From the NCBI RefSeq assembly GCF_003814555.1, contig NZ_RKQN01000002.1:434001-498000 (forward strand): 64,000 bases of DNA. The letters are read 5' to 3'. Numbering within the stretch: position 1 is the first letter of the stretch; every line of letters begins with the position of its first letter. Both the position numbers and the translations under genes were made by a program. This DNA comes from Vulcaniibacterium tengchongense. Its GTDB lineage: Bacteria > Pseudomonadota > Gammaproteobacteria > Xanthomonadales > Xanthomonadaceae. The notes beneath the pieces are model-generated. The model ran no database searches, was not told where the DNA came from, and saw only the letters and a list, made by a program, of their open reading frames with translations. Shown in pieces: positions 48,904 through 52,752 of the stretch.

Positions 48904-49482
48904 TCAGCGCGCGACGCCTCCTCGTCGCAGCCACGCGGCGATCGCGGCCCCGGCCAGGCCCCAGCCGACCGTCTGCTCGATCAACGCGGCGACGGTGAAC
49001 TCGGTCGGAAAGCGGTACCAGGTCCAGTACGGCAGATTCACCGCCAGCCAGGCGAACAGCCCGGCGCCGGCGCCGAGCAAGGCGCGCGCCGCGAAGCCGC
49101 CGCCGACGCGCGCCAGCACCCAGGCCAGCAGCAACCCGCCGACCAGGTTGGCGGCCAGCTGGCAGACCAGGCTGGGCGCCATGTCCGCCGCGTTCGGATT
49201 GCCCTCAGGGCGGTAGACCACGAATGCGTACGGGCTGCCCGCGTACTTCTCGACGAACGCTTGGCGCGCCGCGTCGTCGGCCCACTGCTCCGGCGTCATG
49301 CCCGGCAGCAGGTACACGCCGGCGCCCTGGTTGGCGCTCGCGGTGGCGATCTCGGCCAGCGCCGCGTCCTGGCCGTTGGCCACCTTCACGCCCATCCCGC
49401 CCAGCGGCAGCGCCGTGTGCGCCAGCGCGCTCCAGACGAACATCACCAGCCCGCCGATCACACCGGCGATCACCCATCGCAT
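48904..49482 (-). CDS. Uncharacterised integral membrane protein
   Basis: I do not recognise this 192-residue protein. It has an N-terminal span (VIAGVIGGLVMFVWSALAH), a soluble loop of about 80 residues with GVYLLPGM and AFVVYRPEGN, and three further spans (LVCQLAANLVGGLLLAWVLA, ARALLGAGAGLFAWLAVNL, IEQTVGWGLAGAAIAAWL). ATG 49482 is preceded by AAGGGGAG at about 5 nt. It is convergent with the DUF6463-like gene, 8 bp away. Confidence 0.75.
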   Translation of the reverse strand: MRWVIAGVIGGLVMFVWSALAHTALPLGGMGVKVANGQDAALAEIATASANQGAGVYLLPGMTPEQWADDAARQAFVEKYAGSPYAFVVYRPEGNPNAADMAPSLVCQLAANLVGGLLLAWVLARVGGGFAARALLGAGAGLFAWLAVNLPYWTWYRFPTEFTVAALIEQTVGWGLAGAAIAAWLRRGGVAR

Positions 49483-49610
49483 GTCGCGCTCCCCTTCCCG
49501 GCGGCTCCCTGCCGCGCGCAGAGCATGCGCCGATGCGGACCGGGCCGCATGCTGCAGCGCCACAGAATCGTGCCGGGCTCCCGCCGTAACGAACGCGTAA
49601 CGCGCGGACA

Positions 49611-49738
49611 ATAAAAAGCCCCGCAGGCAGGGGGGGCCGGCGGGGCTGGTGGAGCGGGGCCTGGGGAGGGGCTGACCGCTCCGGGGGATCACTCCAGGGG
49701 AGGGAGAGATCTCGCGACGGGCGTTGCACCCGTCGCGG
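49611..49738 (-). ncRNA. C-rich small RNA downstream of polA, sX13-like
   Basis: This element lies in the 447-bp gap after polA. On the minus strand it begins with a perfect hairpin GCGACGGG/CCCGTCGC (49714-49736). It then has several single-strand C-rich motifs: TCCCTCCCC (49705-49697), CCCCC (49687-49683), CCCCTCCCC (49671-49663) and GGCCCCGC. It ends in an intrinsic terminator AGCCCCGC/GCGGGGCT (49647-49617) followed by TTTTTAT. A TATAGA -10 candidate is at 49744-49739. Size (about 120 nt), C-rich loops and position match what I recall of sX13 of Xanthomonas; E. coli Spot 42 and Pseudomonas ErsA also lie next to polA. The exact 5' end is uncertain by several nt. Confidence 0.75.
49617..49647 (-). 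terminator. Intrinsic terminator of the sRNA candidate
   Basis: On the minus strand AGCCCCGC (49647-49640) pairs with GCGGGGCT (49624-49617), followed by TTTTTAT. The 15-nt apical part is C-rich. Confidence 0.85.
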
Positions 49739-49929
49739 TCTATATGACCATTCCGAACATGCACGGTTCGTGAAGATTCCCGTTAATTATTTGTAGGGTT
49801 CAGGGGCGATTCATTGCCTCGGCGCGCACGCGCTCACGGCGATTCCCCGCCTTCTGCGACGCCATCGCGCGCGCGTGTCCACCGGCACAGGGCACCGCGC
49901 ACGGCCACTCCGGCGCGCGCACGGGCGCC

Positions 49930-52752
49930 TCAGTGCGCCTGGTCCCAGTTGTCGCCGACGCCGCTGTCGATCACCAGCGGCACCCGCAGCTCGGCGGCCG
50001 CGGCCATGCGCGCGGTGGCCTGCGCGATCAGTTCGTCGACGAAGTCGGCGTCGGCCTCGAACACCAGTTCGTCGTGCACCTGCAGCACCATCAGCGCGCG
50101 CTCGCGGCGCTCGGCCAGCCAGGCGTCGATCGACACCATCGCCCGCTTGATGATGTCCGCGGCGGTGCCCTGCATCGGCGCGTTGATCGCGGCGCGCTCG
50201 GCGCCGGCGCGCAGTCCGGCGTTGCGGGCGTGGATGTTCTCCAGGTACAGGCGGCGGCCGAACACGGTCTCCACGTAGCCGCGCTCGCGCGCCTGCTGGC
50301 GGGTGCGCTCCATGAAGTCGCGCACGCCCGGGTAGCGGCTGAAGTACAGCGCGATGTAGTCCTGCGCCTCGCCGCGGCCGATGCCGAGATTGCGCGCCAG
50401 GCCGAACGCGCCCATGCCGTACATCAGGCCGAAGTTGATCGCCTTCGCGGCGCGGCGCTCGTTGGCGCTGACCTGGTCCATCGCCTTGCCGAACACCTCG
50501 GCGGCGGTGGCGCGGTGGATGTCGGCGCCGGATTCGAACGCGCGCAGCAGGCCCTCGTCCTCCGACAGGTGGGCCATGATCCGCAATTCGATCTGCGAAT
50601 AGTCGCAGGACACGATCCTGCGCCCGGGCGGGGCGACGAAGGCCTGGCGGATGCGGCGGCCGTCGTCGGTGCGGATCGGGATGTTCTGCAAATTCGGGTC
50701 GTTCGAGGCCAACCGCCCGGTGGCGGCGCCGGCCTGGTGGTAGCTGGTGTGCACGCGGCCGGTGTGCGGATTGATCATCTCCGGCAGCTTGTCGGTGTAG
50801 GTGCTGCGCAGCTTGGCCAGGCCGCGGTATTCGAGGATCACCCGCGGCAGCTCGTGCAGCTCCGCGATCGCCTCCAGCGCCTCCTCGTTCGCGCTGGGCT
50901 GGCCGGTCGGCGTCTTCACCAGCGCCGGCAGCTTCAGCTCCTCGTACAGCAGCGCGCACACCTGCTTGGGCGAGTCCAGGTTGAAGCTGCGCCCGGCCAG
51001 CTCGGTGGCCTTCTGCTGCGCCGCGAGCATGCGCTTGTTCAGGTCGGCCGACTGCCGGCGCAGCTCCTCGGCGTCGATCATCACGCCATTGGCCTCGACC
51101 CGTTCGAGCACCTGCACCAGCGGCATCTCGATCTCGCGGTAGACCCGCTCCAGCGCCGGCTCGGCGGCCAGCTTCGGCCCCAGCGCGCGGTGCAGGCGCA
51201 GGGTCACGTCGGCGTCCTCGGCGGCGTAGCGGGTGGCGTCCTCCAGCGCGACCTGCGAGAACGCGATCTGCTTGGCGCCCTTGCCCGCGACCTGCTCGTA
51301 CTTCACCGTGTCGTAGCCGAGGTAGCGCTTGGCCAGCGAATCCATGTCGTGGCGCGTGGCGGTGGCGTTGTAGACGAAGCTTTCCAGCATGGTGTCGTCG
51401 GCGTAGCCGGCGACCTCGACGCCATGGCGGCGCAGCACGTGCAGGTCGAACTTGCCGTGCTGCCCGATCTTGCGCAGGCCCGGATCGGCGAACAGCGGCC
51501 GCAGCGCGGCCAGCGCGGCGTCGAGGTCGAGCTGCGCCGGCGCGCCCGGGTAGTCGTGGCCGAGCGGCAGGTAGGCGGCGCGGCCCGGCTCGGCGGCCAG
51601 GCTCACGCCGACCAGGCGCGCCTGCAGCGGATCCAGGCCGTCGGTCTCGGTGTCGAACGCGAACGCGCCGGCCTGGCGCAGGCGCGCGACCCAGGCCTCG
51701 AGCTGTTCGCGGGTCAGCACGGTCTCGTACTCGCCCGGCGCGGCCAGCGCCGGATCCAGGCCGTCGAGCGGTTTCGCCGCGCCGCGGGCGTGGCCGGCCT
51801 CGGTGCCGCGCATCGAGACGCGGCCGTCGCCCGCGGCGGCCGGCGCGTCCGCCGCCGCGCCGCCGTCGAGCTCGCGCAGCGCCTGCTTGAAGCCGTAGCG
51901 GGCGTACAGCGCCCGCAAGGCCTCGACGTGGCGCTCGCGCAGCGCCAGATCGGCCGGCCCCTGCTCCAGCGCGACCTCGGTGTTGATCGTCACCAGGGCG
52001 CGGTTGAGCGGCAGCCGCGGCAGCGCCGCGCGCAGGTTGTCGCCGATCTTGCCCTTGACCGCGTCGGCATGGGCGATCACGCCATCGAGCGAGCCGTACT
52101 CGTTCAACCACTTGGCCGCGGTCTTCGGCCCGCACTTGTCGACGCCCGGGATGTTGTCGATCGCATCGCCCATCAGCGCGAGCAGGTCCACCACGCGCCC
52201 GGGCGGCACGCCGAACTTCTCGACCACGCTCGCCTCCGAGTCGAGGCGGCTGCCGCTCATGGTGTTGACCAGGGCGATGCCGCCACCGCCGTCGCCGCCG
52301 CTGCGCACCAGCTGGGCGAAGTCCTTGTCGCCGGTGGAGATGGTGACGTCGATGCCGTCGCGCGCGGCGCGCAGCGCCAGCGTGCCGATCACGTCGTCGG
52401 CCTCCACCCCGGGCACGCGCAGGATGGTGATGCCCAGCGCCTCGACGATCTCGCACATCGGCTGCACCTGCGCGCGCAGGTCGTCCGGCATCGGCGGGCG
52501 GTTGGCCTTGTATTGCGGGTACATCTCGTCGCGGAACGTGGGGCCCGGCGCGTCGACCACGAAGGCGACGTAGTCGGGCTTCTCGTTCAAGGTCGCGCGC
52601 AGCATGTTGACCACGCCGAACAGCGCCCCGGTCGGCTCGCCGGCCTCGTTGCTCAGCGGCGGCAGGGCGTGGAAGGCGCGGTAGAGATAGCTGGAGCCGT
52701 CGATCAGGACCAAACGGCGCCGGGCGGGCGCGGGCGTGGGGGATGCGTTCAT
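49930..52752 (-). CDS. polA: DNA polymerase I
   Basis: Pol I fills repair gaps and removes Okazaki primers. The 940-residue protein has all three domains: 5'-3' exonuclease (LIDGSSYLYRAFHALPPL at the N terminus, residues 1 to about 300), a 3'-5' exonuclease with intact FDTETDGLD (about 365), so proofreading is probably active, and the polymerase with motif A DYSQIELR (about 714), motif B KAINFGLMYGMG and motif C VHDELVFE (about 893). The length is near the E. coli 928. The start is supported by a -10 six bases upstream. Confidence 0.98.
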   Translation of the reverse strand: MNASPTPAPARRRLVLIDGSSYLYRAFHALPPLSNEAGEPTGALFGVVNMLRATLNEKPDYVAFVVDAPGPTFRDEMYPQYKANRPPMPDDLRAQVQPMCEIVEALGITILRVPGVEADDVIGTLALRAARDGIDVTISTGDKDFAQLVRSGGDGGGGIALVNTMSGSRLDSEASVVEKFGVPPGRVVDLLALMGDAIDNIPGVDKCGPKTAAKWLNEYGSLDGVIAHADAVKGKIGDNLRAALPRLPLNRALVTINTEVALEQGPADLALRERHVEALRALYARYGFKQALRELDGGAAADAPAAAGDGRVSMRGTEAGHARGAAKPLDGLDPALAAPGEYETVLTREQLEAWVARLRQAGAFAFDTETDGLDPLQARLVGVSLAAEPGRAAYLPLGHDYPGAPAQLDLDAALAALRPLFADPGLRKIGQHGKFDLHVLRRHGVEVAGYADDTMLESFVYNATATRHDMDSLAKRYLGYDTVKYEQVAGKGAKQIAFSQVALEDATRYAAEDADVTLRLHRALGPKLAAEPALERVYREIEMPLVQVLERVEANGVMIDAEELRRQSADLNKRMLAAQQKATELAGRSFNLDSPKQVCALLYEELKLPALVKTPTGQPSANEEALEAIAELHELPRVILEYRGLAKLRSTYTDKLPEMINPHTGRVHTSYHQAGAATGRLASNDPNLQNIPIRTDDGRRIRQAFVAPPGRRIVSCDYSQIELRIMAHLSEDEGLLRAFESGADIHRATAAEVFGKAMDQVSANERRAAKAINFGLMYGMGAFGLARNLGIGRGEAQDYIALYFSRYPGVRDFMERTRQQARERGYVETVFGRRLYLENIHARNAGLRAGAERAAINAPMQGTAADIIKRAMVSIDAWLAERRERALMVLQVHDELVFEADADFVDELIAQATARMAAAAELRVPLVIDSGVGDNWDQAH

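Follow-up and report, generated by a model that had tools for sequence, protein, structure and literature searches.

We examined a 64,000-nt stretch of the Vulcaniibacterium tengchongense genome (the window, whose coordinates are used throughout), in which polA is followed on the minus strand by a short RNA element and then by the gene of a 192-aa protein (Table 1). The distance between the polA stop codon and the RNA (49736-49610, minus strand) is 193 nt. The 192-aa protein contains hydrophobic stretches and gave no Pfam match at E 0.001.

The results of a cmscan of the whole window showed that the Rfam sX13 model (RF02232) matches this element above its cut-off along the full model (positions 1-115), and sX13 was the sole Rfam family that reached its gathering threshold in the 64,000 nt. 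The V. tengchongense genome contains a single copy. Among 149 genomes of the family (own genome included), the model had a match at E<=0.001 in 142 and exceeded its cut-off in 112, and the V. tengchongense score lies near the cut-off, among the weaker passing copies.

A first-pass annotation of this DNA had described an sX13-like RNA on the minus strand of the gap downstream of polA and had proposed an Rfam/Infernal search and a comparison of the C-rich loops among relatives. Position and name were both borne out, the covariance model scoring above its cut-off and the loops being conserved in the alignment. Three other elements of that description were recovered, namely four C-rich unpaired motifs (loops 1 to 3 and the CCCC linker of the predicted fold), a perfect 8-bp first hairpin (49736-49714, minus strand) and a terminator with a T-run, here the U-tract TTTTTATT at 49617-49610. 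As to its statement that the stretch holds no gene, long open frames do cross the RNA; we read them as chance frames in G+C-rich DNA, because the pairs of the RNA covary and the probable start of the downstream gene (ATG 49482) lies outside the RNA.

Table 1. Features of the sX13 locus of V. tengchongense (window coordinates)
Feature	Position	Strand	Basis or remark
polA, DNA polymerase I, upstream neighbour	49930..52752	minus	Pfam DNA_pol_A, E 3.5e-155
Putative -35 GAACCG, ECF/sigma-E-type	49764..49769	minus	adjoins CTTCAC; motif class also upstream of relatives
Putative -10 GTCATA, 15-nt spacer to GAACCG	49743..49748	minus	overlaps TATAGA
5' hairpin GCGACGGG-TGCAACG-CCCGTCGC	49714..49736	minus	covariation, RNAalifold, lowest-energy fold
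Rfam RF02232 (sX13) stretch	49612..49725	minus	55.2 bits, cut-off 50
Stem-loop 1, C-rich loop CTCCCCT at 49702-49696	49687..49711	minus	fold and alignment
Linker CCCC, unpaired	49686-49683	minus	predicted fold
Stem-loop 2, C-rich loop CCTCCCCA at 49669-49662	49651..49682	minus	fold and alignment
Stem-loop 3 / intrinsic terminator, loop CCCCCCT at 49635-49629	49617..49647	minus	terminator scan, fold, alignment
U-tract TTTTTATT, probable 3' end of the RNA	49610..49617	minus	
192-aa protein gene, downstream neighbour, not in RNA	48904..49482	minus	ATG 49482 as probable start

Structure and identity of the RNA

The predicted fold of 49734-49610 consists of four hairpins with an energy of -64 kcal/mol (z -6.14), a value that none of 200 shuffles equalled, while folding from the Rfam start at 49725 gave -52.5 (z -5.27) and reduced the first hairpin to a 3-bp stem. 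The three stem-loops with 4C, 4C and 5C loop motifs by which sX13 is recognized were present in this fold and conserved in the alignment, which was composed of the window copy and 49 polA-linked relatives. Changes on both sides of a pair were observed in 23 of the 39 pairs, a count reached in 0 of 500 shuffles, and sliding the partners lowered the share of paired cells from 95.5% to no more than 45.4%; as the tested structure was taken from the window copy's own fold, it is somewhat favoured on the paired cells.

We conclude, with a probability of about 85%, that the minus-strand RNA is the sX13 regulator of a Lysobacteraceae/Xanthomonadaceae bacterium; judged from sequence, it would be a free-standing RNA of ~115-125 nt with its own promoter. 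It resembles sX13 of Xanthomonas in its location downstream of polA on the same strand, its three C-rich loops, its terminator and its length, and differs from it in a covarying 5' hairpin that is absent from the Rfam model. The RNA is also visible by RNA-seq in Xylella (PMC12189769). The V. tengchongense copy is an ordinary additional member of sX13. The window alone adds a further genome to those in which this known regulator is annotated, and the wider family is of more interest. New relative to published work are a 5' hairpin that the model lacks, a probable stress-type promoter and a broader family at polA-engB loci.

Transcript start and promoter

The 5' hairpin is perfect, with 8 bp (GCGACGGG/CCCGTCGC) and an additional possible C-G pair, and it was predicted by RNAalifold unprompted. 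Comparison of the relatives showed double changes in 7 of its 10 pairs, one pair being split between 25 AU and 25 GC, and the loop GCAA as its invariant part; one of five covariation measures (further pair types) was not above the shuffles, 156 of 500 reaching its value. The first bases of the Rfam model, AACGCC (49725), lie inside the loop of this hairpin, so the RNA may begin ~11 nt earlier. Its primary transcript start would then be near 49736, AACGCC would perhaps be a processed end, and the published sX13 model seems to be without its 5' hairpin. The mapping of the sX13 5' end was reportedly done in Schmidtke 2012. The published end lies 11 nt inside the proposed hairpin structure, which counts against a longer RNA. 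The Xanthomonas sX13 is given as 115 nt, the same length as the Rfam match, its 5' region is called unstructured, and its first 14 nt were dispensable for the plant phenotype (PMC3771888).

Two other readings of the locus were weighed against the transcript structure. The arms could form a DNA palindrome, as the site of a regulator, outside an RNA that starts at AACGCC as annotated; the annotated 5' end does fall inside the hairpin, and the arms would also change together under binding of a dimeric protein. We regard this as unlikely, since a protein site is expected to retain its letters, whereas here the arm letters vary while pairing is kept and it is the loop GCAA that is invariant; moreover, the hairpin begins where the +1 would be expected, ~6-7 nt after GTCATA. 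That the element is only a 5' leader or attenuator of the 192-aa gene, with no free RNA, is very improbable. This gene is on the same strand and starts ~130 nt past the U-tract, but the RNA and engB occur together at 23 class-level polA loci, and at 22 of these engB is on the opposite strand, so that a downstream gene on the strand of the RNA is not conserved; in addition, the terminator closes the RNA and sX13 is detected by Northern blots in Xanthomonas (PMC3771888).

Upstream of the hairpin, the minus strand carries CTTCACGAACCG (49775-49764), 15 nt and GTCATA (49748-49743). We compared this region with 54 distinct Xanthomonadaceae-like upstream regions (window included) and 23 other order-level regions (mostly Rhodanobacteraceae), separated by similarity rank and record title and containing no duplicates. 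The CTTCACGA columns were 85-94% conserved in the 54 regions, TTCAC was present in 53 of them and TTCACGAAC in 35, while many remoter relatives carried GAACTT-N15/16 followed by TCTAA or GTCATA. A sigma-E pattern, GAAC-N16..19-[GAT]TC[ATC], which was written after part of the upstream regions had been viewed, was present upstream in 29 of the 54 Xanthomonadaceae-like, 8 of the 23 other order-level and 17 of 27 class-level regions; the corresponding numbers were 2, 1 and 2 for downstream controls and averaged 1.2, 0.5 and 0.6 for 200 letter shuffles. It was also found in 11 of the 19 class-level rows unseen at the time of writing. The strict pattern was absent from 25 of the 54 and 15 of the 23 regions, the Xanthomonas element drifts to GATC and GGTGTTATAT, and a TATA is conserved, all of which speaks against sigma-E.

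V. tengchongense has one RpoE above the curated cut-off (TIGR02939, 334.4 bits). Its own rpoE gene is preceded by GAACTT-N15-GTCA, starting 68 nt before the probable ATG, with the spacing and the start of the -10 that are found at sX13. Because GAACCG-N15-GTCATA is laid out like this rpoE promoter, we infer sigma-E control, and we favour the reading that RpoE, the envelope-stress sigma factor, drives sX13 from this element. The sX13 RNA may thus be part of the response to envelope stress. This would be in keeping with its behaviour under salt and heat, as Xanthomonas was shown to contain more sX13 at high salt, at 37 C and when grown in minimal medium (PMC3771888). No connection between sX13 and RpoE was found in the limited collection of literature searched, where the two are mentioned together once, in unrelated contexts.

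The hexamer TATAGA, which the first-pass annotation had called promoter-like, is present at 49744-49739 (minus strand), but a sigma-70 promoter around it was rejected because a sigma-70 scan returned none for the RNA. A less likely alternative is that TATAGA nevertheless serves the housekeeping sigma-70 for transcription of the same sX13, a weak -35 being assisted by an activator on the conserved CTTCACGAAC, and that the resemblance to sigma-E promoters is ancestral or accidental. TATAGA could equally serve as a sigma-70 -10, the -10 retains its ATA across the 54 regions (columns 0.85/0.89/0.80), GAAC and GTCAT are lost in the Xanthomonas versions, and sX13 was termed constitutively expressed in Xanthomonas (PMC3771888). 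Besides the negative scan, this alternative is opposed by the GAACTT-N15/16-GTC or TCTAA elements of several other families and by the agreement of the own rpoE element in spacing and -10.

In the Xanthomonadaceae-like genomes, the CTTCAC block that precedes GAAC (49775-49770) was conserved as strongly as the promoter itself and could represent an extended -35 or the binding site of an activator.

C-rich loops and G-rich ribosome-binding sites

Rhodanobacteraceae have CACCTCCCTG as loop 1, which resembles the anti-Shine-Dalgarno end of 16S rRNA. Pairing with G-rich ribosome-binding sites, the mode of action put forward in the first-pass annotation, agrees with what was published for Xanthomonas: both GGGG motifs in the target mRNAs and C-rich sX13 loops were reported as requirements for repression, Hfq was described as not needed, and hfq itself is among the repressed genes (PMC3771888). 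The V. tengchongense hfq gene has GGGG at -12 to -9, the Shine-Dalgarno position, in agreement with this published mode. The hfq gene was obtained from 26 of the 28 family genomes searched, and GGGG was located within -40..+40 of its start in 18 of the 26 (own included), either before the ATG or in codons 3-4, and was absent from 8. As controls, GGGG was present at 12 of 56 polA starts (those with a usable ATG among 80 loci) and in 15% of 80-nt segments placed at random, counted on one strand.

The RNA probably acts by covering G-rich ribosome-binding sites with several of its loops. In such a scheme, sX13 would be transcribed from its own promoter downstream of polA, probably by RpoE; the transcript would start near 49736, its 5' end protected by a hairpin that closes on itself; three further stem-loops would display UCCCC-type loops; these would pair with GGGG in or beside ribosome-binding sites, that of hfq included, and block translation; and the terminator hairpin would end the RNA.

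Probably related RNAs at polA-engB loci

The 2013 description of sX13 gave it as restricted to Xanthomonadaceae and posed two questions, namely if sRNAs are encoded at other polA loci and if such RNAs have a similar action (PMC3771888). We searched with two models, R2, which includes the 5' hairpin and was built from the window and 36 Xanthomonadaceae-like loci, and R3, which is order-wide; they replaced R1, which was dropped for its poor RNAalifold structure (15 pairs) and loose alignment. R2 found the RNA downstream of polA and on its strand in 76 of 80 loci, these being the best 80 of 583 polA loci, most like that of the window and including unplaced MAGs. Without the 36 training loci the count was 40 of 44, with Rhodanobacter, Dyella, Luteibacter and Dokdonella represented. 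The match was missing at four loci (L078, L084, L098 and L109) and ran off the contig end at two (L045 and L064), and an extra chance match was seen in L092 (E 0.77). A search for engB gave no match in any of the 80 polA loci (L032-L111).

The order and class searches were run under stricter filters. R2 found the RNA in 48 of 121 order genomes at E<=0.001, and several of the 18 order loci examined had no PolA within 1.5 kb. R3 gave matches in 31 of 369 class genomes at E<=0.01, 26 of them outside the order, and loci were available for 25 of the 26. PolA was upstream on the same strand in 17 of these loci, on the other strand in two and not found within reach in six, and PolA and/or EngB lay within ~1.5 kb in 24 of the 25. 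The exception, L155, had neither polA nor engB and was rejected as a repeat artefact. The matches with polA on the other strand (L151/L219, from one genome, and L156) are weaker and were retained.

We also started from polA itself. The gene was located in 87 of the 369 class genomes, of which 82 lie outside the order; the 60 highest-scoring loci were taken and 5 with <400 nt downstream were dropped. The locator query (window 49930-50500, minus strand) was out of frame, so that the sample is skewed to genomes whose polA resembles the query also in the wrong frame; it served as a locator only, and an in-frame PolA was subsequently identified at all 60 loci. R3 matched at E<=0.01 in 25 of the 55 other-family loci (11/28 and 14/27), six of the 25 genomes having been viewed earlier, and 24 of the 25 matches were on the polA strand, 47-514 nt downstream. 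The RNA was present in 23 of 24 loci with engB nearby and in 2 of 31 without it (Fisher p 3.6e-12; G+C of the two groups 0.615 and 0.634). Many other Gammaproteobacteria appear to have a similar RNA next to polA.

A known RNA at such a locus is ErsA, to which the first-pass annotation had linked the element; the polA position and the promoter support this link. In one Pseudomonas-like genome (G414), a 121-bit RF01719 (ErsA/Pseudomon-1) match lies downstream of polA on the same strand and is preceded by GAACTT-N16-GTCATA, with no engB within reach of the locus. The genome was recognized as Pseudomonas-like by the RsmY model (RF00195), which exceeded its cut-off in this genome only and was weak in the other 47. 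The polA-engB gap is the site of ersA in P. aeruginosa (PMC8575079), where ErsA is under sigma-22 control (PMC8395346, PMC5819304). ErsA was reported to require Hfq for algC and anr and not for amrZ, anr being bound by a U-rich unpaired region (PMC8395346, PMC5819304, PMC8575079). The window RNA is polA-linked as well and is preceded by GAACCG-N15-GTCATA, a putative promoter of the sigma-22/sigma-E type. RF01719 had no match at E<=0.001 in the V. tengchongense genome under the stricter filters. R3 gave the ErsA of G414 23.2 bits (E 0.0027 in 30 kb), a weak score alone. Of 13 loci fetched in all, 10 were scored with R3, namely this ErsA and nine further loci with sub-threshold RF01719 matches; five of the nine scored 31-45 bits, so that they bridge the RF01719 and R3 models, and the others 21.1, 17.1, 11.2 and 7.4 bits.

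With the anti-hemB model (RF02837, Burkholderia RNA 7), matches at E<=0.001 were obtained for 15 of the 20 class-level loci, of which L153 (57.9 bits) exceeded the cut-off; the model had no cut-off match in the window. None of the 20 class-level loci reached the cut-off of the Rfam sX13 model (best 48.3 bits). No Rfam clan is given for RF02232, RF01719, RF02344 or RF02837, and no paper naming two of sX13, ErsA, Pseudomon-1 and anti-hemB was found in the limited literature collection searched.

The relation to Spot 42, also drawn in the first-pass annotation, was supported by the shared polA locus and not by the sequence. The E. coli spf gene is located in the interval from polA to yihA/engB and on the polA strand, and the same interval was described for Vibrio and E. 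coli (PMC3295665). The Spot 42 Rfam model had no cut-off match in the window; as a sequence relative, Spot 42 was rejected because its 10.5 bits (E 1.5) are at the level of chance matches there. Spot 42 has its locus in common with sX13, and homology is unsupported by the sequence score. Spot 42 is Hfq-dependent and, according to the title of a reference, CRP-repressed (PMC3771888).

Taken over the class, sX13, ErsA and many RNAs below every Rfam cut-off probably form one old sRNA family of the Gammaproteobacteria (GTDB), driven by sigma-E, with a 5' hairpin, C-rich loops like an anti-Shine-Dalgarno sequence and a seat between polA and engB; the order of the window would have kept the polA neighbour and lost engB, and Spot 42 may be a rebuilt or replaced descendant. 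Since the search model has matches next to polA and engB in many families, it can be tested directly whether sX13 and ErsA go back to one ancestor, perhaps together with whatever occupies the Spot 42 slot.

Several gaps contained tandem copies of the RNA, with four in G422 (L137), three in G529 (L146) and two each in G022 (L126), G492 (L219) and G493 (L227). In G118, a degenerate second copy (L127, 1639-1729) follows an intact sX13 by ~85 nt, with its promoter and first stem worn. Copies without PolA within 1.5 kb were found at L123 (G207) and L128 (G002); each of these genomes has another copy, beside polA in G207, and the L123 copy keeps a sigma-E-like GAACTA...ATCTAA.

The out-of-frame polA translation matched 87 of 369 genomes at E<=1e-20 and lay at polA in all 60 loci checked. 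A wrong frame can thus give the impression of conservation and mislead gene calling in G+C-rich genomes.
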